A stretch of 64,000 nucleotides of DNA from positions 6,286-70,285 of the forward strand of contig JAKAZO010000002.1 of NCBI GenBank assembly GCA_021815825.1, given 5' to 3'. Under the pieces are notes generated by a model. It searched no databases. It saw only the letters and a list, made by a program, of their open reading frames with translations, and was not told the origin of the DNA. The stretch is from Pseudomonadota bacterium (lineage in GTDB: Bacteria > Pseudomonadota > Alphaproteobacteria > Acetobacterales > Acetobacteraceae). Position numbers and translations under genes: made by a program. The first letter of the stretch is position 1. The number at the start of each line of letters is the position of its first letter. This document shows, one piece after another, positions 2,232-15,466 of the stretch.

Positions 2232-2428
2232 GGTTTCCTCCTCGCCGGCTGTTATGCGCCGCACCGGCTCCGACGCCTTTATCGGCCAGCAACCCGTGGT
2301 CGGGGAAGAGCCTCCGAGCGATCCGGCCACCGGCGCGGCGCAACGCTGCGCTGGTTTCCCCGAGGGATGATATAGATCGGGCGAACGGCCCAGCCCCAGG
2401 CAAGCTGGACGCCGGCATGCGAGGTCCG

Positions 2429-3202
2429 ATGACAAGACTCCTGGTCGTCAATCCCAACATCTCGGAGCGTGTGTCGCGGCTGATCGAGGACGAGGCCCGG
2501 CGCGCCGCCGCGCCGGGAACGGAGATCACCGTCGCCACCGCCCCGTTCGGGGTCGCCTATATCGAAACCCGGTTCGAGGCCCTGATCGGTGCCTACGCGG
2601 TGGCGAACGTGATCGCGGAGCAACGGAGCGGATATGACGCGGCGGTGGTGGCCGCGTTCGGCGATCCCGGCGTGCCGGCGCTGCGCGAGGCGTTCGACAT
2701 GCCGATCGTCGGCATCACCGAGGCCGCGCTGATGAGTGCGTGCCTGCTCGGCCAGCGCTTCGGCATCATCGCCATCTCGCGCCGGATCGTTGCCTGGTAT
2801 CGCGAGTGCGTCGAAGCCAACGGGCTCATCGGCCGGCTGGCCGGCATTCGCGCGCTCGATCAGCCGCTGGCCGATATCGGCAGCGTCCAGAGCGACCATG
2901 CCGAGCGGCTGCGGCATTTATGCGCCGAGGCCATCGAGCGCGACGGCGCGGACGTCCTCATCCTCGCCGGCGCGCCGCTCGCCGGGCTCGCGCGCAGCAT
3001 CCGGCAGGACATTCCGGTCCCGGTGGTCGATGGCGTCTCGAGCGCGATCCGGCACGCCGAGACTCTGGTCCATCTCGCTCCGGGCGCGGCGCGGGCCGGC
3101 AGCAGCGCGCCGCCGCCGCTCAAGCCCAACGCCGGGCTGCCGCAAGCCCTGCGGGACCTCCTCGACGGGGCCGGCCGGGATCAGAAATCCAGATCGGCGT
3201 AG
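2429..3202 (+). CDS. Asp/Glu/hydantoin racemase-fold protein lacking both catalytic cysteines
   Basis: The 257-residue protein starts MTRLLVVNPNISE, the usual N-terminus of hydantoin and allantoin racemases, so ATG 2429 is preferred over an in-frame ATG at 2417. The fold markers are intact: NPNxS near residue 8, FGDPG at 77-81 and VDGVSSAIRHAE near the C-terminus. In this family two cysteines flank the substrate and act as acid and base, at about positions 76 and 181 in the characterised rhizobial enzyme. Here position 76 is Ala (AAFGDPG) and position 181 is Gly (LAGAPLAG). Classical racemization therefore looks impossible, and a binding, decarboxylase or isomerase role is open. The gene converges on the GST gene with a 22-nt overlap of 3' ends. 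Confidence 0.8.
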   Translation: MTRLLVVNPNISERVSRLIEDEARRAAAPGTEITVATAPFGVAYIETRFEALIGAYAVANVIAEQRSGYDAAVVAAFGDPGVPALREAFDMPIVGITEAALMSACLLGQRFGIIAISRRIVAWYRECVEANGLIGRLAGIRALDQPLADIGSVQSDHAERLRHLCAEAIERDGADVLILAGAPLAGLARSIRQDIPVPVVDGVSSAIRHAETLVHLAPGAARAGSSAPPPLKPNAGLPQALRDLLDGAGRDQKSRSA

Positions 3203-3849
3203 TGGGCCGGCGGGGTGAAGCCGGGCATGCGGTCGGCGAGGATGGCGCGAAAGCTCGGCCGGCTCTTCATGCGCGCATACCATTCGCGCACCGAGGGCGT
3301 TGCGCTCCAATCGACATCGCCGGTGAAGTCGAGCACCGAGAGATGCGCCGCGGCAGCGAAATCGGCCAGCGATATGCTCGCCCCGGCCAGCCATTTCCGC
3401 GTCTCGGCGAGCCAGCCGATGTATTCGAGATGGTGGCGCAGATTGGCGTAGCCGGCGCGCAGCGCCCCCGCCTCCGGCTGGCCGCGGCCGGCGAGGCGCT
3501 TGAGATGCTTCTCGCCGAGCAGGTTCCGCGTCACCTCCTGGTCGAACTTGCCATCGAACCAGGCCGCCAGCCGACGCACTTCCACCCGCTCGGCCAGCGT
3601 GCGTCCGAGCAGCGGCAAATCGGGATAGGCCTCGTCGAGATACTCGCAGATTGCCCAGGAATCGGCGATGACCAGGCCATTGTCCTCGATCAGCGTCGGC
3701 ACGGTGCCGGCGGGGTTGAGGTCGAGATACTCGGGCTTTCGCTCCCAGGGCCGTTCGAGGCGGAGCTCGAAGGGCAGGCGCTTCTCGGTCAGCACGAGAC
3801 GCACCTTGCGTGAGAACGGGCAGATCGGGAGGTGGTGGAGGATACGCAT
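3181..3849 (-). CDS. fzlA: FzlA-like glutathione S-transferase-fold division protein
   Basis: The protein has 222 residues with a GST N-terminal thioredoxin fold (PICPFSRKVRLVL, NPAGTVPTLIEDNG) and an all-helical C-terminal domain. The signature WFDGKFDQEVTRNLLGEK, the invariant-looking Trp at residue 35 and the C-terminal tail HYADLDF match what is known of FzlA, the alphaproteobacterial GST homologue that binds FtsZ filaments and licenses constriction. FzlA is not thought to use glutathione. The gene ends a minus-strand run with the glycosyltransferase 9 nt upstream. A plain GST cannot be excluded, but the DLDF tail argues for FzlA. Confidence 0.68.
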   Translation of the reverse strand: MRILHHLPICPFSRKVRLVLTEKRLPFELRLERPWERKPEYLDLNPAGTVPTLIEDNGLVIADSWAICEYLDEAYPDLPLLGRTLAERVEVRRLAAWFDGKFDQEVTRNLLGEKHLKRLAGRGQPEAGALRAGYANLRHHLEYIGWLAETRKWLAGASISLADFAAAAHLSVLDFTGDVDWSATPSVREWYARMKSRPSFRAILADRMPGFTPPAHYADLDF

Positions 3850-3858
3850 GCCGGGCGG

Positions 3859-5037
3859 TTACTGCACCGGCGCCCTCCGGGGCAAGCCATGCGTGCCATG
3901 CGCGCACCGGCGGGCCCGATCTTCCTCGGCCATGGCGGCGACGCGCTCGGCATTGCCGCGCCAGGTGTAGTCGCGCGTGGCGATCTCTGCCCGAGCCGCC
4001 GCGCCGAGGCGGGCGCGCAGGGCCGAATCCGTGGCCAGACGCGTGATCGCCCGGGCCATCGAAGCCGGCTCGCCGGGGTCGAACAGCAGCGCGGTGCGTT
4101 CGTGTTCGAGGATTTCCCGCAGATTGGGCTGGTCCGGCGCGACGATGGCGCAGCCGGCGGCCATGTATTCGAACAGTTTCAGCGGCGAGGCATAGGCCAC
4201 CGCGCTCGGCTGCAGGGCGATGTCGAAGCCGGCGAGCAGTCCGGGCACGTCCTCGCGCGGCGCCAGCCCGGCGAATCGCACCCGCGCGCCGAGCCCCAGC
4301 GCCGCGGCCTGCGCCTCCAGCTCCGCCCGCGCCGGCCCGTCGCCGACCACGACGAGGTCGAGCGCCGCCGACGCCGGCTCGGCCAGGCTGGCGATGACCC
4401 GATCCAGCCCATGCCATGGGCGGACGAAGCCGATGAAGCCGAGCACCACGCGCCCGCGCGGATCGGCCTCCGACCGCGGCCCGAAGCGGGCCGGCACGAT
4501 GGCGTTCGGAATGACGGCGATACGCTCCCTTGCCACCCCTTCGCGCGCGATCATGTCGCGCAGCACGCCGGTGACGGCGTAAACCCGGTCCGCGGCGCGC
4601 CAGACGAAGCGTTCCGACCAGCGGGCCAGGGGCTTCAGACGCAGGCCGCCGAACCGGCTGCGCTCCTCGGCGAGCGGCGCGTTCACCTCGAGATGAAAGA
4701 CCACTCCGAGCCGCCGTGCCAGCACCGCGCCGGCGAGGTAGTAGAGATTGTAGCGCTCGTAGATCAGATCAGGCTGAAACGCGCGCGCGGCGGCGGCGAG
4801 GCGGCGATAGGCGGGACCGTTGTAGGCCAGCTCCGCCAGCTCGCCGAGCCAGCCGGGCAGCAGGCGGCGCAGCAGCGGCACCAGCCGGCTCTCGCCGCCG
4901 AACCCGGCGGCGGCATAGAAGCTAGGGCCGACCACGAGGACGTCGTGCCCCGCCTCGCGCAGGGCGGCGACGAGTTCCTCGACATGCACGCTCTGCCCGT
5001 CGCGCGACTGGATGCGGTGGCTGTAGAGGATGCGCAT
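3859..5037 (-). CDS. Glycosyltransferase family 4 (GT-B)
   Basis: The protein has 392 residues from the ATG at 5037; a GTG lies one codon further upstream. The N-terminal Rossmann domain holds GQSVHVEELVAALREAGH, and the C-terminal domain has VVGDGPARAELE and the E-x7-E-like donor site SPLKLFEYMAAGCAIVAPD, typical of GT4 retaining transferases that use nucleotide-sugar donors. It probably adds a sugar to a lipid-linked or exported polysaccharide in the cytoplasm. Its start overlaps the stop of the acyltransferase gene (TGATG), so the two are translationally coupled, and together with the DUF218 protein they suggest a small cell-surface glycan cassette. Confidence 0.9.
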   Translation of the reverse strand: MRILYSHRIQSRDGQSVHVEELVAALREAGHDVLVVGPSFYAAAGFGGESRLVPLLRRLLPGWLGELAELAYNGPAYRRLAAAARAFQPDLIYERYNLYYLAGAVLARRLGVVFHLEVNAPLAEERSRFGGLRLKPLARWSERFVWRAADRVYAVTGVLRDMIAREGVARERIAVIPNAIVPARFGPRSEADPRGRVVLGFIGFVRPWHGLDRVIASLAEPASAALDLVVVGDGPARAELEAQAAALGLGARVRFAGLAPREDVPGLLAGFDIALQPSAVAYASPLKLFEYMAAGCAIVAPDQPNLREILEHERTALLFDPGEPASMARAITRLATDSALRARLGAAARAEIATRDYTWRGNAERVAAMAEEDRARRCAHGTHGLPRRAPVQ

Positions 5038-6113
5038 CACCGTGGCTCCGCGATCGCGTGATTGGGTCGCACGGCGTGGCGCAGCCGGCCGAGCGCGTGC
5101 CGGGCGAGGGTCGCCAGTCCGGCCGGGCGCCGCGGATTGATCAGCAGCACGCCGACGCGCTGGCGCCGTGCGCCGACCCAGAGCTTCTTGTAGTCGTCGT
5201 CGCCGCGGCCGAAATCCAGCTCGCGCGCGCCGTCGGTCTCGATCAGGTGCCGGATCATCATCGCCGTCAGCACCGTGCCGGGCGACAGCGCCTGCTGCCC
5301 CTCGTCATGCGCGAGCTTGAGCACGCTCGCGCGCCCACCCGGCTCGCTCAGCCAGACCTGCGCCGCGATCGGCGTCGTGCCGAGGCGCAGCAGTCCCAGC
5401 CGCAGCACGCCGGCCGCGGCCGCCTCGCGCATCAGCGCGGCATTGAAGTCCGGAAATGGCTCGGGCTCCTTCCAGCTCCGCGCGTAGACCTGCTCGAAGG
5501 CGGCGATTCCCGCCTCCAGCGCCTCGCCACCGGCCGTCAGCGTGAAGCCGGCCTCCGGCAGCCGTTCCCAGCGGCGCAGCTTGCGCTGGATCGTGGTGCG
5601 CAGCATGGACGGGCGGGCATTGAGATAGTGTTGCCAGGAACCGACGGCCTCGTGCCAGTTGCCGAAATGGCGAAAGCGCACGAGGACGAGCCCCGCGGTT
5701 CCGGCGCCGGCCAGCAGGTCGGCGAGGTCGCCGCGTTCGGCATCGAGCGCGTCGAGCCGCACCACCGGCCAGCGCCGCGCGAACCGGCCGAAGGCGAAGC
5801 CGACCGCGCGCCGCGCCTCGGGGGAGAGGTCGGCCGCGAGCGCCGGGGTGTAGAGGCAGCTATAGGGGCTGGTCAGGCTGGCCAGCCGGCCGCCCACCCG
5901 CTGCAGCGCCAGCACGGCCACCGGCCGGGCGCCGTGCCAGGCGAGTACGAAGCAGGGGCGCGCGCCTTGCTCCAGCGCATGGCCGGCGACGGTCGCTAGG
6001 AAGGCGCGGCCGAAGAAAAAATTCGCGGCCCCGGCCGCGTCCAGCAGCGCCGCGGCGGCTGGGGGCAGCGCGCCGAGATCGGGCAGCGTCTCGATCCGGA
6101 CCGTGTCGGCCAT
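5037..6113 (-). CDS. FemAB/CelD (BioF2-like) GNAT-fold acyltransferase
   Basis: This 358-residue protein has a double GNAT fold of the Acetyltransf_6 (BioF2-like, CelD) type. Supporting stretches are NARPSMLRTTIQRKLRRWER, the acceptor-domain segment AQVWLSEPGGRASVLKLAHD and the end motif ELDFGRGDDDYKKLW. Relatives decorate exopolysaccharides or cellulose, or add amino acids to peptidoglycan from aminoacyl-tRNA. The neighbouring glycosyltransferase, overlapping by a single base, favours polysaccharide modification. Acyl donor and acceptor are unknown. It lies 4 nt downstream of the DUF218 gene. Confidence 0.75.
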   Translation of the reverse strand: MADTVRIETLPDLGALPPAAAALLDAAGAANFFFGRAFLATVAGHALEQGARPCFVLAWHGARPVAVLALQRVGGRLASLTSPYSCLYTPALAADLSPEARRAVGFAFGRFARRWPVVRLDALDAERGDLADLLAGAGTAGLVLVRFRHFGNWHEAVGSWQHYLNARPSMLRTTIQRKLRRWERLPEAGFTLTAGGEALEAGIAAFEQVYARSWKEPEPFPDFNAALMREAAAAGVLRLGLLRLGTTPIAAQVWLSEPGGRASVLKLAHDEGQQALSPGTVLTAMMIRHLIETDGARELDFGRGDDDYKKLWVGARRQRVGVLLINPRRPAGLATLARHALGRLRHAVRPNHAIAEPR

Positions 6114-6117
6114 CGCC

Positions 6118-6882
6118 TCAGCGGCTGAGCAGCAGGTAATAGAGGCAGCCGATCGCCTCGTGCAGCGCGTAATAGCTCATTTCCCAGCCGCTGATCCGCG
6201 GCACATAATCGGCGACGGCGCTGCCGGCGGCGCGGTCGAGGCGGACGGGCGCGGCCGTCGCGGTGATGCCGAAATGGGCGAAGGCGATCAGGGCCCGCCG
6301 TTCGTGCCAGGCATGGGTGACGACATAGACCGAGCTGATACCGGCCTGGCGCAGAATGGCCGCGGATTCCTCGGCATTCTGCCAGGTATCGAGCGAGCGG
6401 GTCTCGACCCAGCGCGGCTTGACCGCGAAATCGGTGGTGAGGCTCTCGGCCATCAGCGCCGCCACCGGCGTCGGCACGTCCTCCGGCGCGCCGCCGCTGA
6501 CCAGCACCGGCAGCCCGGTGCGCCGCGCCACGATGGCGGCGGTGCGGACCCGTTCGAGCGTCAGGGCACCGACATCCACCGCTGGCACGGTCCCGTCCGC
6601 CGCCCGGACCTCGTCCGCGCCGAGCACGACGATCGCCGCCGGTGGCGCGCCTGGCGGCGGCGTCAGCGGCAGGCCGCGCTCCAGCGCCACCAGCATGGTG
6701 CTGCCGACGATGGGAAGGGACAGGACGATCAGGCCCACCAGCGCGAAACTGCTGATCGCGCGTCCGAGCCCTCGCCACTTCCGCGCGATGACCAGGCCGG
6801 CGAGGCCAAGGGGCAACAGGTTGAGGGGGGGCACGACGATGGCCGTGGAAACGACGCTGAGCGACACACTTCCTCCGAACAA
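6118..6882 (-). CDS. DUF218 (YdcF/SanA/ElyC) membrane protein
   Basis: The protein has 254 residues with two hydrophobic N-terminal segments (about residues 5-28 and 40-62) followed by a DUF218 domain: AAIVVLGADEVRAADG, SLDTWQNAEESAAIL and VYVVTHAWHERRALIAF. DUF218 proteins act at the periplasmic face of the membrane and are linked to envelope integrity and undecaprenyl carrier use, although their chemistry is unsettled. Here it heads the acyltransferase-glycosyltransferase-GST run. A second DUF218 gene lies in the ftsEX operon at 34678. Confidence 0.82.
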   Translation of the reverse strand: MFGGSVSLSVVSTAIVVPPLNLLPLGLAGLVIARKWRGLGRAISSFALVGLIVLSLPIVGSTMLVALERGLPLTPPPGAPPAAIVVLGADEVRAADGTVPAVDVGALTLERVRTAAIVARRTGLPVLVSGGAPEDVPTPVAALMAESLTTDFAVKPRWVETRSLDTWQNAEESAAILRQAGISSVYVVTHAWHERRALIAFAHFGITATAAPVRLDRAAGSAVADYVPRISGWEMSYYALHEAIGCLYYLLLSR

Positions 6883-8768: not shown

Positions 8769-9248
8769 ATGACGGACGGCGAGGGGCCAACCCGGCCGCC
8801 GCCCGAGGCGAGCGGCGAGGCTGCCGATCTGCTCGATCTGGCGCGGGACTGGATCACCTTGTGGCAGAGCGAACTCAGCGCGCTCGCCGCCGACCGCGAA
8901 GCCCAGGAGACATGGCAGACGCTGCTCGGGCTCTGGGCCGGTGCCGCGGGCGCGATGCTGCGCAGCGCACCGCGCGGCCTCGATCAGGGGCTGGGCGCAG
9001 GTGGGTTGGGCGCGTTCGGCTTCGCCCCTCCGCGCGGCCGGGCCGACGATGACCGACGAGCGCCCCGAGGCGCCGAGCCCGCTGCGCCGGCGGGGGCCGC
9101 GCCCGCTGCTGCTGCACCTGACCCTCGCGATGCTGAGATCGAGCGCCTCCATAGCCGCATCCTCCGGCTGGAGCAGCGCCTGGCCGAGCTCGAGGGCAAA
9201 TCCGGGGCGGGCGGCCGAGGCGCTGGCCGAGGCGCTCGCCGCCGCTAG
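8769..9248 (+). CDS. PhaE-like / PHA-synthase-associated coiled-coil protein
   Basis: The 159-residue protein has three parts: a helical N-terminal region with repeated Trp (DLARDWITLWQSELSALAAD), an Ala/Pro-rich linker, and a C-terminal heptad coiled coil (IERLHSRILRLEQRLAELEG). This arrangement resembles the PhaE-type partner of class III polyhydroxyalkanoate synthases or a phasin-like granule protein, though the similarity is architectural rather than strong. The start follows GGAGGGCGG. Its last 200 nt are also read in another frame by the PhaC-like gene. Association with PhaC is inferred from overlap and order. Confidence 0.6.
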   Translation: MTDGEGPTRPPPEASGEAADLLDLARDWITLWQSELSALAADREAQETWQTLLGLWAGAAGAMLRSAPRGLDQGLGAGGLGAFGFAPPRGRADDDRRAPRGAEPAAPAGAAPAAAAPDPRDAEIERLHSRILRLEQRLAELEGKSGAGGRGAGRGARRR

Positions 9249-10389
9249 CGCCCACCCCATCGGAAGCGCCCACCCCTTCACTGGCGCCCATCCCTTCACT
9301 GGCGCCGAGTCGTTTTCCGCCGCGGTGCTGCAGGAGACGCTGCGCCAGGACCGGGCCCTGCTCGCCGGCATCGCCGCGTACCGCCGCCATCCCTACCAGC
9401 GCACCCTCGCCGATCCGCCGACGTGCTGGCAGGAGGGGGGGACCCGCCTGCTCGATTTCGGCGGCGAGGGTCCCCTCGTCCTGGTGGTGCCGAGCCTGGT
9501 CAACCGCGCCTATGTGCTCGACCTCGCGCCCGGCCATTCGCTGCTGCGCGATCTGGCCGCCAACGGCTTGCACCCGCTGCTGCTCGATTGGGGCTGGCCG
9601 GGCGAGGTCGAGCGCGATTTCACCCTGACCGATTACGTCGCCGGGCGGCTCGAGCGCGCGCTCGTCGCGGTCGAGGGTTTCGCCGCTGGCGGCGGCGCGA
9701 TCGGGGGCAAAATCAGCGTCGTCGGCTACTGCATGGGCGGGCTGCTCGCCCTGGCCGCGGCGCAGCGCCGGCCGGATCGCGTCCAGGCGCTCGCGCTGCT
9801 GGCGACGCCTTGGGATTTCCACGCGGCGGACCCGGCCCAGGCGGCCGCGTTCGCCAGGCTGCTGCCGCTGTTCGAGCCGGCTCTGGCCCTTGGCGGGACC
9901 CTGCCGATCGACCTGCTGCAGACCCTGTTCGCGCTGCTCGATCCGTTCGGCGTCAGCGACAAATATCGCGCTTTCGCGCGCCTGAACCCGGATACGCCGC
10001 GGGCGCACCTGTTCGTGGCGCTCGAGGACTGGCTCAATGACGGTGTGCCGCTGGCCGCGCCGGTTGCGCGTGAGACGCTCGAAGGCTGGTACGGGGCCAA
10101 CACGCCGGCGCACGGCGCCTGGCGCATCGCCGGGCTGCCCGTGCGCCCGGAGAGCCTGCGGCTGCCGGCATTCGTTGCCGTGCCGGCCCGCGATCGCATC
10201 GTGCCGCCGGAGAGCGCCCGCCCGCTCGCTGCGGCGCTGCCAGGCGCGGTCCTGCATCAGCCGCCGGCCGGCCATGTCGGCATGGTCGCCGGCCACACCG
10301 CCTCGGCGGTGCTGTGGCGGCCGCTCGCTGAATGGCTGCGGCAGGTGAGCGCGGCGCCGGCCGCGCCGCGGGCGCGCCGGCGACGTTAA
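9049..10389 (+). CDS. PhaC-like alpha/beta hydrolase (class III PHA synthase-type)
   Basis: The 446-residue protein carries a polyhydroxyalkanoate-synthase box GYCMGG with the nucleophile Cys at 228, in place of the Ser of lipases. It also has DWGWP at 180-184 and candidate Asp382 (PARDRIVPP) and His409 (PAGHVG), completing a Cys-Asp-His triad. PHA synthases polymerise (R)-3-hydroxyacyl-CoA on the surface of storage granules. The start MTDERPEAP at 9049 is inside the preceding gene; no later ATG precedes the conserved region except 9130. A linker at residues 67-85 is built of an 18-bp tandem repeat. It lies 23 nt before the EAL gene, suggesting one transcript. A depolymerase or other thiol hydrolase remains possible. 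Confidence 0.72.
   Translation: MTDERPEAPSPLRRRGPRPLLLHLTLAMLRSSASIAASSGWSSAWPSSRANPGRAAEALAEALAAASAHPIGSAHPFTGAHPFTGAESFSAAVLQETLRQDRALLAGIAAYRRHPYQRTLADPPTCWQEGGTRLLDFGGEGPLVLVVPSLVNRAYVLDLAPGHSLLRDLAANGLHPLLLDWGWPGEVERDFTLTDYVAGRLERALVAVEGFAAGGGAIGGKISVVGYCMGGLLALAAAQRRPDRVQALALLATPWDFHAADPAQAAAFARLLPLFEPALALGGTLPIDLLQTLFALLDPFGVSDKYRAFARLNPDTPRAHLFVALEDWLNDGVPLAAPVARETLEGWYGANTPAHGAWRIAGLPVRPESLRLPAFVAVPARDRIVPPESARPLAAALPGAVLHQPPAGHVGMVAGHTASAVLWRPLAEWLRQVSAAPAAPRARRRR
9247..9300 (+). repeat. 18-bp tandem repeat, three copies, in frame
   Basis: Units start at 9247, 9265 and 9283 and follow (A/G)GCGCCCA(C/T)CCC, with the last six bases varying between the first copy and the other two. 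They encode SAHPIG, SAHPFT and GAHPFT in the PhaC-like protein, between its N-terminal segment and the hydrolase domain. The array begins on the TAG stop of the PhaE-like gene. Confidence 0.9.
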
Positions 10390-10412
10390 GGCTTTCTTGG
10401 CGGCTCGCCTGG

Positions 10413-12209
10413 ATGATCAACCGTCCAAGCTTCTTCCTGGTCGGATTCAACGACATCATGGACGTCCAAGTCGAGACTCCCCCTCGCTCAGCCAAGCCGG
10501 CGCAGCCGCGCCGCGCCCCGACGCGCCAGCATGCCCGCAGCCTCGCCAGCGCCGCGCTGGACGTCGCCGCCGAGGGCGTGATCGTCTGCGACGACACCTT
10601 GCGTGTCTGGCTCTGCAATGCCGCCGCGTTCCGCCTCCTCGGGCTGGATGAGCCGTTGCAGTTGCGCGCGCGCCCCTCGCTGGGCCAGGTGCTGGCGGCC
10701 AGCGCCTGCCTCGACGAGACTGCCCGGCGAAGCGTGCTGGTCCACTGTGCCGAGACGGTCGCGAATGGCGAGCGGGCCGCAGGCGAGGTCGAATTGCCGG
10801 CTGACAACCGCGCCGGGACGGGTCTCGCCCTGCGCCTGCGCCGGATCGCGCCGCGCCGCTGGGCGCTGATGTTCGCCCCCGCCCGCGCCGTCACCGCGCC
10901 CGACCCGCTGGCGCATGATCCGCTGACCGGTCTGGCCAATCAGCGCCGGTTCGAGGCTGCGCTCACGGAGCGTCTGGCGGCGGCGGGTCCGGGTGGGCAG
11001 CAGGACTGGCCGGGGGTGCTCCTGGTCGACGTCGAGGGCCACGGCAGTCTGACCGAGGTCTCGGGGCGACCTGCGGGGGATGCGCTGCTGCGCCTGGTCG
11101 GCCAGCGCCTGCGCGCGGCGTTGCGCGAGTCCGACCTGCCGGCGCGCCTCGATGACGGCATATTCGCCGCACTGGTTCCCGCCGCCGCCGGGGTGGAGAC
11201 GCTGGCGCGGCGGCTCGTCGAGCGGCTGGCGCGGCCGTATGTGGTCCAGGGCCAGGTCGCGCACGTGCAGGCCAGCGTCGGCCTCGCCGTTGCTCCGCGC
11301 GACGGCCGCGAGACCGAGCAACTGCTGCACAGCGCCGATCTCGCCTTGCGGCAGGCGAAGGCCGAGGGCAGCGGCGTCTATCGCGCCTTCAATGTGCTGA
11401 TGCGTGAACAGGCGGAAGCGCGCCGCTCGCTCGAGGCCGACCTGCGCCGGGCGCTGGTGCTGGGGCAGTTCGAACTGTTCTATCAGCCGCAGTTCAACGT
11501 CGCCACGCGGCGGGTGCTGGCCTGCGAGGCCTTGCTGCGCTGGCGGCACCCGATCCGCGGCCTGGTCGCACCGGGCGATTTCATTTCCGTCACCGAGGAG
11601 ATCGGGCTGATCAACGCGATCGGCGAATGGGTGCTGCGCGCCGCCTGCCAGGAGGCGATGGACTGGCCGAGCGGCATCGGGGTCGCGGTCAATGTCTCGC
11701 CGCTGCAGCTCGCCGATCCGGACCGACTGCTGCGCGCCGTGGCCGGCGCGCTGGCCGCCAGCGGGCTGAGCCCCGAGCGGCTCGAGATCGAGATCACCGA
11801 GAGCGCCCTGTTCGGCCAGGAGGAGGCGACGCTGGATTGCCTGCGGACCTTGCAGGCGCGCGGCGTGCAGATCTCGCTCGATGATTTCGGCACCGGCTAT
11901 TCGTCGCTGAGCCGGCTCCGTTCCTTCCGCTTCGACCGCATCAAGATCGACCGCTCCTTCGTCAAGGACATGACCGAGGATGCGCAGGCGCGGGGTCTGG
12001 TGCGCGCGATCGCCGCCCTGGGTACCGGCCTCGCGATGGCCACCGTCGCCGAGGGCGTGGAGACCGACGAGCAGGCGCGCCAAGTGGAAGACGAGGGGTG
12101 TACCGACCTCCAGGGCTATTTGATTTCCCGCCCGCTGCCCGCCAGCGAAGTGCGCGCCTTGCTGCTCCGGCTCAACGAGCGCGCCCTGCTCGCTGGCGTC
12201 GCCGATTGA
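10413..12209 (+). CDS. PAS-like / degenerate GGDEF / EAL cyclic-di-GMP phosphodiesterase
   Basis: The protein has 598 residues from ATG 10413; ATG 10458 is an alternative 15 codons downstream, and neither has a clear ribosome binding site. A PAS-like domain spans about 42-155. A GGDEF fold spans 165-325, but its active loop reads LDDGIF at 246-251, so cyclase activity should be lost. The EAL domain (about 340-590) looks complete: CEALLRW at 371-377, NVSP at 427-430, EITES at 460-464, DDFGTGYSSL at 490-499 and KIDRSFVK at 511-518. It should hydrolyse c-di-GMP to pGpG, with the dead GGDEF perhaps sensing GTP. It lies between the PhaC-like gene and a BLUF gene 13 nt downstream. Confidence 0.9.
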   Translation: MINRPSFFLVGFNDIMDVQVETPPRSAKPAQPRRAPTRQHARSLASAALDVAAEGVIVCDDTLRVWLCNAAAFRLLGLDEPLQLRARPSLGQVLAASACLDETARRSVLVHCAETVANGERAAGEVELPADNRAGTGLALRLRRIAPRRWALMFAPARAVTAPDPLAHDPLTGLANQRRFEAALTERLAAAGPGGQQDWPGVLLVDVEGHGSLTEVSGRPAGDALLRLVGQRLRAALRESDLPARLDDGIFAALVPAAAGVETLARRLVERLARPYVVQGQVAHVQASVGLAVAPRDGRETEQLLHSADLALRQAKAEGSGVYRAFNVLMREQAEARRSLEADLRRALVLGQFELFYQPQFNVATRRVLACEALLRWRHPIRGLVAPGDFISVTEEIGLINAIGEWVLRAACQEAMDWPSGIGVAVNVSPLQLADPDRLLRAVAGALAASGLSPERLEIEITESALFGQEEATLDCLRTLQARGVQISLDDFGTGYSSLSRLRSFRFDRIKIDRSFVKDMTEDAQARGLVRAIAALGTGLAMATVAEGVETDEQARQVEDEGCTDLQGYLISRPLPASEVRALLLRLNERALLAGVAD

Positions 12210-12222
12210 AGAGGGCCGCGCC

Positions 12223-12675
12223 ATGCTCATGTCCCTGTATCGCATCATCTATGTCAGCCGCAGCCTGCTTCGCGGCGACGAGGACCAGGTCGCGTCGGAG
12301 TTGCGACGCATCCTGGCCGTCTCTCGCCGCAACAACGCCAGCGAGGGTCTCACCGGGGCGCTGCTGCTCGGCCAAGGCAGCTTCGCTCAGGTGCTGGAGG
12401 GCCCGATGGACGCCGTGGAGCGTGCGTTCGAGCGCATCCAGGACGACCCGCGCCATGCCGACCTGGTCGTTGTCGAGATCGGTCCCGTCGCGGCGCGGGC
12501 GTTCCCCGACTGGTCGATGGCTTTTGCCGGCCCCGCCGCGGCGGGCGCCGCTCCGCGCGTGCGCGCGGTGCTGGAGCAGGTCGGCGCTTCGCCCCGCGCG
12601 GCCGCCGCCGAAAATGTGGTCGGCCTGCTCGACGCGCTGATCCGCCGTGAGACCGAGTGGGCCGCGGCGCGCTGA
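12223..12675 (+). CDS. BLUF-domain blue-light sensor
   Basis: The protein has 150 residues. BLUF domains bind FAD and signal by rearrangement of a Tyr-Gln hydrogen-bond network. The key residues are visible: Tyr10 (RIIYVSRS), Asn38 (NASEGLTGALL), Gln56 (FAQVLEG) and the Trp97/Met99 pair (FPDWSM). About 50 helical residues follow, a typical short-BLUF output cap. A GAAGAGGG stretch precedes ATG 12223, with ATG 12229 an alternative. The stand-alone protein follows the EAL gene by 13 nt, so it probably controls that phosphodiesterase in trans, as BLUF does in fused BLUF-EAL proteins such as BlrP1 and YcgF. Confidence 0.94.
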   Translation: MLMSLYRIIYVSRSLLRGDEDQVASELRRILAVSRRNNASEGLTGALLLGQGSFAQVLEGPMDAVERAFERIQDDPRHADLVVVEIGPVAARAFPDWSMAFAGPAAAGAAPRVRAVLEQVGASPRAAAAENVVGLLDALIRRETEWAAAR

Positions 12676-14179: not shown

Positions 14180-15466
14180 ATGAGCCCAGCGGATCTGCCG
14201 GTCGCCGATCACGCCCGCAATCTGCGCCTGATCGGCCATTCCGATCAGGGCGGACGCCCGGATGGCGTGCAGCTCATGGTCCATCGTGGCTATGCGTATG
14301 TCGGGCACATGTTCTCGCAGGGCTTCAGCGTCATCGACGTGCGCGATCCGCGCGCGCCGCGGCCGGTGCATTACGAGAAGGCGCCGCCGATGACGTGGAA
14401 CATCCATCTGCAGACGCATGACGACCTGCTGCTGGTGATCAACGCCAAGGACATGTTCGCGGATGCCGCCTTCGCCGACGAGCGCAACTACTACACCGGC
14501 GCACTCGGCAAAACGGTCGGCACCGCCGCGGCGGGCGACGCCAAGGGCGATACCACGGGCGATGCCACGGGGCGAAGCTGGACGGCCGGGCTTTCGGTGT
14601 TCGACATCAGTCACCCCGAAGCGCCGCGCTGCATCGGTTTCATGCCGGTGGACGGGGGTGGCATCCATCGCATCTGGTACACCGGCGGGCGCTGGGCCTA
14701 TGTCTCCGCCCTGCTGGACGGCTTCACCGACTACATCTTTCTCGTCGTGGACATGGCGGACCCGACGCGACCGCGCCCGGCGGGGCGCTTCTGGCTGCCG
14801 GGGATGAATCTCGCCGCCGGCGAGCAGCCGGACTGGCCGGCACAGCGCCGCTACGGGCTGCACCACGCCACGGTCAGCGGCACGACCGCCTATGGCGCCT
14901 GGCGCGACGCCGGACTGGTGATGATCGATGTCGCCGATCCCCACGCGCCCCGGCTGCTCACCCACCGCAACTGGTCGCCGCCCTTTGGCGGCGGCACCCA
15001 TAACTGCCTGCATCTGCCGGAGCGCGATCTGCTCGTGGTGCTGGACGAGGCGGTGCTCGACAACCAGGAGGACGGGCTGAAGCTGATCTGGCTGTTCGAT
15101 GTCCGCGAACCCACCAACCCGGTCAGCATCGCCACCTTCCCCACGCCGGCGGAGGCGGACTACGCCGCCAAGGGCGGGCATTTCGGTCCGCACAACATCC
15201 ACGAGAACCGGCCCGGCAGCTTCGTCAGTTCCGAGCTGATCTTCGCCACCTATCAGAACGCCGGGGTGCGCGTGTTCGACATCCGCAATCCGTACCAGCC
15301 GGTCGAAACCGCCGCCTTCGTGCCGGCTGCGCCGCCGCGCCTGGTGGATCATCGCCCCAACCGCCCGCTGGTCATCCAGAGCTGCGATGTCTTCGTCGAC
15401 GCCAGCGGGCTGGTGTTCAGCAACGACTACAATGGCGGGCTCTACATCATGGAGTATCTCGGCTGA
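14180..15466 (+). CDS. LVIVD-repeat beta-propeller protein
   Basis: The 428-residue protein contains repeated LVIVD-like strands: FSVIDVRDPRAPR, LSVFDISHPEAPR, LVMIDVADPHAPR and VRVFDIRNPYQPV. They form a probable propeller. No signal peptide is evident, unlike the preceding hydrolase. The start follows GAGGGAGGGACGCC. Residues near 118-130 are a three-copy GD-x-x repeat coded by a 12-bp tandem array. LVIVD proteins are usually surface-associated and of unknown function; co-transcription with the SGNH hydrolase is inferred from the 12-nt gap. Its 3' end overlaps that of rimI by 20 nt. Confidence 0.85.
   Translation: MSPADLPVADHARNLRLIGHSDQGGRPDGVQLMVHRGYAYVGHMFSQGFSVIDVRDPRAPRPVHYEKAPPMTWNIHLQTHDDLLLVINAKDMFADAAFADERNYYTGALGKTVGTAAAGDAKGDTTGDATGRSWTAGLSVFDISHPEAPRCIGFMPVDGGGIHRIWYTGGRWAYVSALLDGFTDYIFLVVDMADPTRPRPAGRFWLPGMNLAAGEQPDWPAQRRYGLHHATVSGTTAYGAWRDAGLVMIDVADPHAPRLLTHRNWSPPFGGGTHNCLHLPERDLLVVLDEAVLDNQEDGLKLIWLFDVREPTNPVSIATFPTPAEADYAAKGGHFGPHNIHENRPGSFVSSELIFATYQNAGVRVFDIRNPYQPVETAAFVPAAPPRLVDHRPNRPLVIQSCDVFVDASGLVFSNDYNGGLYIMEYLG
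14534..14569 (+). repeat. 12-bp tandem repeat, three copies, in frame
   Basis: Units GGCGACGCCAAG, GGCGATACCACG and GGCGATGCCACG encode GDAK, GDTT and GDAT in a loop of the LVIVD protein. Confidence 0.88.

Follow-up and report, generated by a model that had tools for sequence, protein, structure and literature searches.

A probable two-gene blue-light phosphodiesterase switch beside a conserved hydrolase gene pair in a genus of the Acetobacteraceae

The locus described here belongs to a window of 64,000 nucleotides, the whole stretch of DNA that was analyzed, which is part of contig C63 in a 3.2-Mb draft genome (G000) of the family Acetobacteraceae. Four genes follow one another on the plus strand (Table 1). 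All four open reading frames of the preliminary description are real, and the gaps of 23 and 13 nt that it gave are correct for the starts as chosen. The single overlap that it mentioned is also present, but is unusually long. The genus is represented by three genomes, and in the two besides the window's own all four genes are intact as well. Among these genomes, the PhaC-like, EAL and BLUF genes have pairwise dN/dS values of about 0.13-0.25, and the overlapped small coiled-coil gene has values of 0.30-0.54. The four open reading frames are conserved and under purifying selection within the genus. Further downstream, at 14180-15466 of the window, a gene with LVIVD repeats is situated between a GDSL hydrolase gene and a rimI-like gene; it was not found at the corresponding place in either congener (L002, L003).

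Table 1. Position and assignment of the genes and junctions of the locus
Feature	Position	Strand	Basis or remark
Small coiled-coil gene, 159 aa, 'PhaE-like' by position alone	8769-9248	+	Family-wide alignment
Gene for a cysteine alpha/beta hydrolase related to PHA synthases, 446 aa	9049-10389	+	PF00561, E 8.8e-13
Out-of-frame overlap of the first two genes	9049-9248	+	Kept across the family
PhaC-like/EAL junction	10390-10457	+	23 nt, or 68 nt if the start is 10458
PAS-GGDEF(degenerate)-EAL gene, predicted c-di-GMP phosphodiesterase	10413-12209	+	Pfam; start possibly 10458
Short stand-alone BLUF photoreceptor gene, 150 aa	12223-12675	+	PF04940

The third gene had been described as an EAL phosphodiesterase. 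The EAL domain is there (PF00563, E 3.5e-70, 236.5 bits), but the protein is no bare EAL protein, as a PAS domain (PF13188, E 1.4e-5) and a GGDEF domain (PF00990, E 3e-28) precede it. The catalytic and metal-binding set of the EAL domain is complete (E372, N427, E460, D490, D491, K511, E547 and Q567). The GGDEF motif is degenerate and reads DDGIF in all three congeners, and an intact GG[DE]EF is found in 25 of the 36 aligned proteins. Because a full EAL catalytic set is combined with a degenerate GGDEF motif, the protein is predicted to be a phosphodiesterase rather than a cyclase, with the residues for c-di-GMP hydrolysis in place. The part of the window that encodes the GGDEF domain is 10900-11400; DDGIF is restricted to the genus and most of the EAL-BLUF relatives retain GGDEF, which suggests that the genus has lost a role in cyclase activity or GTP sensing. 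The start of the gene may lie further downstream than first annotated. In 10416-10457, 13 of the 42 sites differ from those of a congener; in the 23 nt that precede the first ATG, which are also the first 23 nt of the junction, one site differs. Since the 42 nt past the first ATG diverge and the preceding 23 nt stay near-identical, a start at the second ATG, 10458, is plausible.

The fourth gene encodes a stand-alone BLUF photoreceptor, as had been proposed. Its domain scores far above the curated cut-off (PF04940, E 3.8e-28, 97.9 bits versus 25), and the protein aligns with the PixD/Slr1694 structure 2hfn. Tyr10, Asn38, Gln56, Trp97 and Met99 are invariant in 36 of 36 EAL-linked BLUF copies, and the residues predicted to carry flavin photochemistry are in place in the window protein. 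The spacer downstream of the EAL stop contains a ribosome-binding-like sequence, AGAGGG, ahead of the BLUF gene. The C-terminal extension is predicted to be helical in a low-confidence single-sequence model (mean pLDDT 50), a fold that was discarded as evidence for its poor quality. In this C-terminal region, EAL-linked copies are 24% identical to the window protein versus 13% for unlinked copies, and in the BLUF core 54% versus 48%, the unlinked group being small, with eight members of which one (L144_0) is misfiled and actually EAL-linked. The difference is consistent with a role of the C-terminal region as the contact with the EAL protein.

The association of the two genes extends well beyond the genus. 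From among the best family matches to BLUF, 41 copies at 40 loci outside the genus were examined. Of these, 34 copies, which represent 21 other genera, have an EAL gene immediately upstream in the same orientation, and the upstream partner in all 34 pairs is a gene of the GGDEF-EAL type. The distance between the two genes is -11 to +29 nt in every pair but one (285 nt), the pair counts at L144 (first pair) and L151 (start) having been corrected by eye. The commonest distance, -4 nt, is an overlap of stop and start codons and suggests translational coupling of EAL and BLUF. In Aurantimonas (L007), an EAL gene is likewise followed by a BLUF gene, the two matches being about 30 nt apart. No phaC gene was found near the EAL-BLUF pairs within the stretches read at the 40 non-genus loci. 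This adjacency bears out the claim that BLUF and EAL form a unit, and the pair is an old, tight module. One locus (L144, G124:C37) has two EAL-BLUF pairs in tandem, at 2402-4113 and 4783-6498, a putative duplicated light switch.

Identifying the first two genes is less straightforward. The second protein had been called PhaC-like with a GYCMGG cysteine box. The box is present at residues 226-231, but the protein is just a distant relative of PHA synthases. Its catalytic triad, Cys228, Asp382 and His409, is kept in an alignment to the solved PhaC structure 5hz2, and the motifs GYCMGG, DRIVP and GHxGM are conserved in 21 PhaC-like loci. The protein may well perform acyl transfer. Its best NCBIfam relative is class III PhaC, with 133.7 bits for TIGR01836 versus a cut-off of 365.3, a strict threshold which a PhaC on contig C126 of the same genome (340.1 bits) also fails to reach. 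The score for class I is 75.4 bits versus 622.65 (TIGR01838), and the PhaC_N domain, PF07167, was not found in the protein by Pfam. The small partner has a conserved segment, DWITLWQSELxALAxDREAQE, and a C-terminal coiled coil in the family-wide alignment. Its description as PhaE-like could not be upheld: none of 12 family members matches PF09712 at E<=1, and Pfam and NCBIfam return chance hits only.

Better candidates for PHA synthesis are encoded elsewhere in the genome. Contig C126 (L174:1770-3601) carries a PF09712 phaE gene followed by the class III-type phaC gene just below the cut-off, contig C129 (L176:283-2139) a class I PHA synthase gene above the cut-off (TIGR01838, 773 bits), and contig C106 (L175:387-2177) a second gene of the class I type (522 bits). 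PHA synthesis in this organism, therefore, need not involve the window genes. Assignment of the pair as a class III PHA synthase was rejected on account of the scores below the family cut-offs and of the better class III-type pair on C126. The phaE/phaC-like genes, which are conserved in the family without EAL or BLUF, are probably not the plastic-storage genes of the cell, as judged from these comparisons.

The overlap of these two genes has a character of its own. It is out of frame, about 200 nt long in the window and about 130-215 nt in most loci of some 20 genera (L002, L072-L090), the lengths being those for inferred starts; at one locus there is no overlap at the matched start. In the segment with GPRPLLLHL, variability is concentrated at codon position 3 of the PhaC frame (entropy 0.83 versus 0.16-0.26, 21 loci), and in the coiled-coil segment at codon position 3 of the partner frame (1.15 versus 0.46-0.57, 16 loci). 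Because codon-position variability switches frame inside the overlap, as would be the case with translation of both frames, the overlap is a candidate long dual-coding region in which both frames are apparently selected in turn. At a locus outside the family (L091), the PhaC N-terminus is present with GPRPLALHL and no match to the partner was found. A search of the literature, of partial coverage, returned nothing relevant on the phaE/phaC-like overlap, which is long and conserved and may merit its own study.

The preliminary description joined the four genes into one operon, in which blue light would control PHA granule synthesis by the phaE/phaC-like pair via local c-di-GMP turnover. This now seems very improbable. 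The genes are on the same strand, the junction is short and has no recognizable terminator, and the order is identical in three of three genomes of the genus. This order is uninformative, however, because the surrounding shared genes are collinear too, from a glycosyltransferase gene to phnD in one congener (L003) and from yicC to phnD in the other (L002). The preliminary description itself named a lack of order conservation in relatives as grounds for refutation, and at the phaC-like/EAL junction the order is not kept beyond the genus. For the PhaC-like protein, 20 loci were compared, which represent 19 genera of the family besides the window's own and a single genus outside it. The phaC-like gene has neither EAL nor BLUF as its neighbor at any of the 20; at one of them an EAL gene is found about 4 kb away on the opposite strand. 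Among the matches listed from 299 family genomes, no close co-localization of BLUF and PhaC occurs outside the genus, and the nearest distance is 32 kb (G254). Among the loci examined, the phaC-like/EAL junction is thus seen in the window's genus only, which leaves the coupling of phaC to EAL unsupported, and the four-gene operon was rejected as an evolutionary unit. The same reading is further weakened by the missing PhaE match, by the low score of the PhaC-like protein and by the better PHA synthases of the genome. A literature search of partial coverage yielded no paper that ties PHA to control by BLUF or EAL. The proposed coupling of EAL-BLUF to carbon storage is accordingly not supported; the PHA link derives from neighborhood in one genus. 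The case illustrates how a pathway link can be wrongly read from genes that are neighbors in a single genus.

Transcription is a separate matter. The chances are about even that the four genes are co-transcribed by position, from a shared promoter, and share no pathway, an arrangement compatible with a two-gene light switch. Nothing resembling a promoter or terminator turned up when the junctions were put through a crude consensus scan, the fold of the phaC-like/EAL junction is unremarkable (z -1.0), and the 23 nt after the phaC-like stop are conserved; both pairs may be co-transcribed in the genus. On the other hand, the divergent stretch 10416-10457 looks non-coding, and a promoter of a type outside the scan could fit in the 68-nt junction that results from a start at 10458. 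A genus-specific wiring, in which a module of the PapA/PapB type shares one transcript with the PHA-synthase-related pair, would be previously undescribed and is considered a long shot; if true, light, c-di-GMP and acyl-polymer (or acyl-transfer) activity would be co-regulated in this genus. It is also unlikely that the BLUF protein acts on another partner, for example a transcription factor as in the BluF-BluR system of E. coli. Seven of the 41 examined BLUF copies in the family have no EAL neighbor, as this proposal would allow. Against it stand the tight, conserved linkage of EAL and BLUF, whose genes overlap by 4 nt in many genera, and the catalytic residues of the window EAL domain, which are intact, unlike those of E. 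coli BluF.

The explanation that accounts best for these observations, with a probability of roughly 0.78, is that the two genes at 10413-12675 form a blue-light switch like PapA/PapB, and that the conserved hydrolase pair next to them is unrelated. The short BLUF protein would bind FAD and sense blue light through the flavin network of Tyr10 and Gln56. As a separate subunit it would, via its C-terminal helices, alter the activity of the PAS-GGDEF-EAL phosphodiesterase encoded upstream. The predicted outcome is a light-dependent lowering of c-di-GMP or, less likely, its protection. The change in c-di-GMP would be read by general effectors, for example the four PilZ-domain open reading frames that a profile search found in the genome together with seven EAL open reading frames, and the final effect would be on surface life or motility. 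Action through general c-di-GMP effectors, none of them specific, is possible. Cellulose synthase, the obvious guess for a c-di-GMP target in the Acetobacteraceae, was rejected, as the genome has no match to the family TIGR03030.

Comparison with known systems places the two gene pairs in different contexts. The hydrolase pair resembles class III PhaE-PhaC in that two adjacent genes encode a cysteine alpha/beta hydrolase and a coiled-coil partner. It differs in that the partner does not match PF09712 and the enzyme is 232 bits under the TIGR01836 cut-off. BlrP1 of Klebsiella pneumoniae is similar to the proposed switch in that BLUF controls an EAL phosphodiesterase, but there the two are fused in one chain, whereas they are two genes in the window; the match of the window BLUF to 3gfx is weak (E 6.8e-7). 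In BluF/YcgF of Escherichia coli, BLUF also occurs together with EAL, again as a fusion. According to one report (PMC3509220), the EAL domain of this protein is degenerate and has no phosphodiesterase activity; the window genes are separate and the EAL residues intact.

The closest likeness is to the PapB-PapA system of Rhodopseudomonas palustris, in which the short BLUF protein PapB and the EAL protein PapA assemble into a heterotetramer, with proposed signaling via the BLUF C-terminal helices and an effect on biofilm formation (reviewed in PMC8846402). The preliminary description drew attention to the separation of the BLUF and EAL genes. There are indeed two genes here, but such separation is not new, since PapB-PapA makes separate BLUF and EAL proteins a known kind (PMC8846402). 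Both systems are alphaproteobacterial and consist of an EAL protein with a short BLUF protein encoded apart from it, and C-terminal helix signaling is proposed (PMC8846402). PapA, however, is described as a solo EAL protein without other domains, whereas the window protein also contains PAS and degenerate GGDEF domains. Separate BLUF-EAL pairs, of which few cases have been characterized, are widespread in the family (at least 22 genera) and offer many natural variants for studying the transfer of a light signal between two proteins. Likened by description, with orthology not claimed, the window pair would work as PapA and PapB do.
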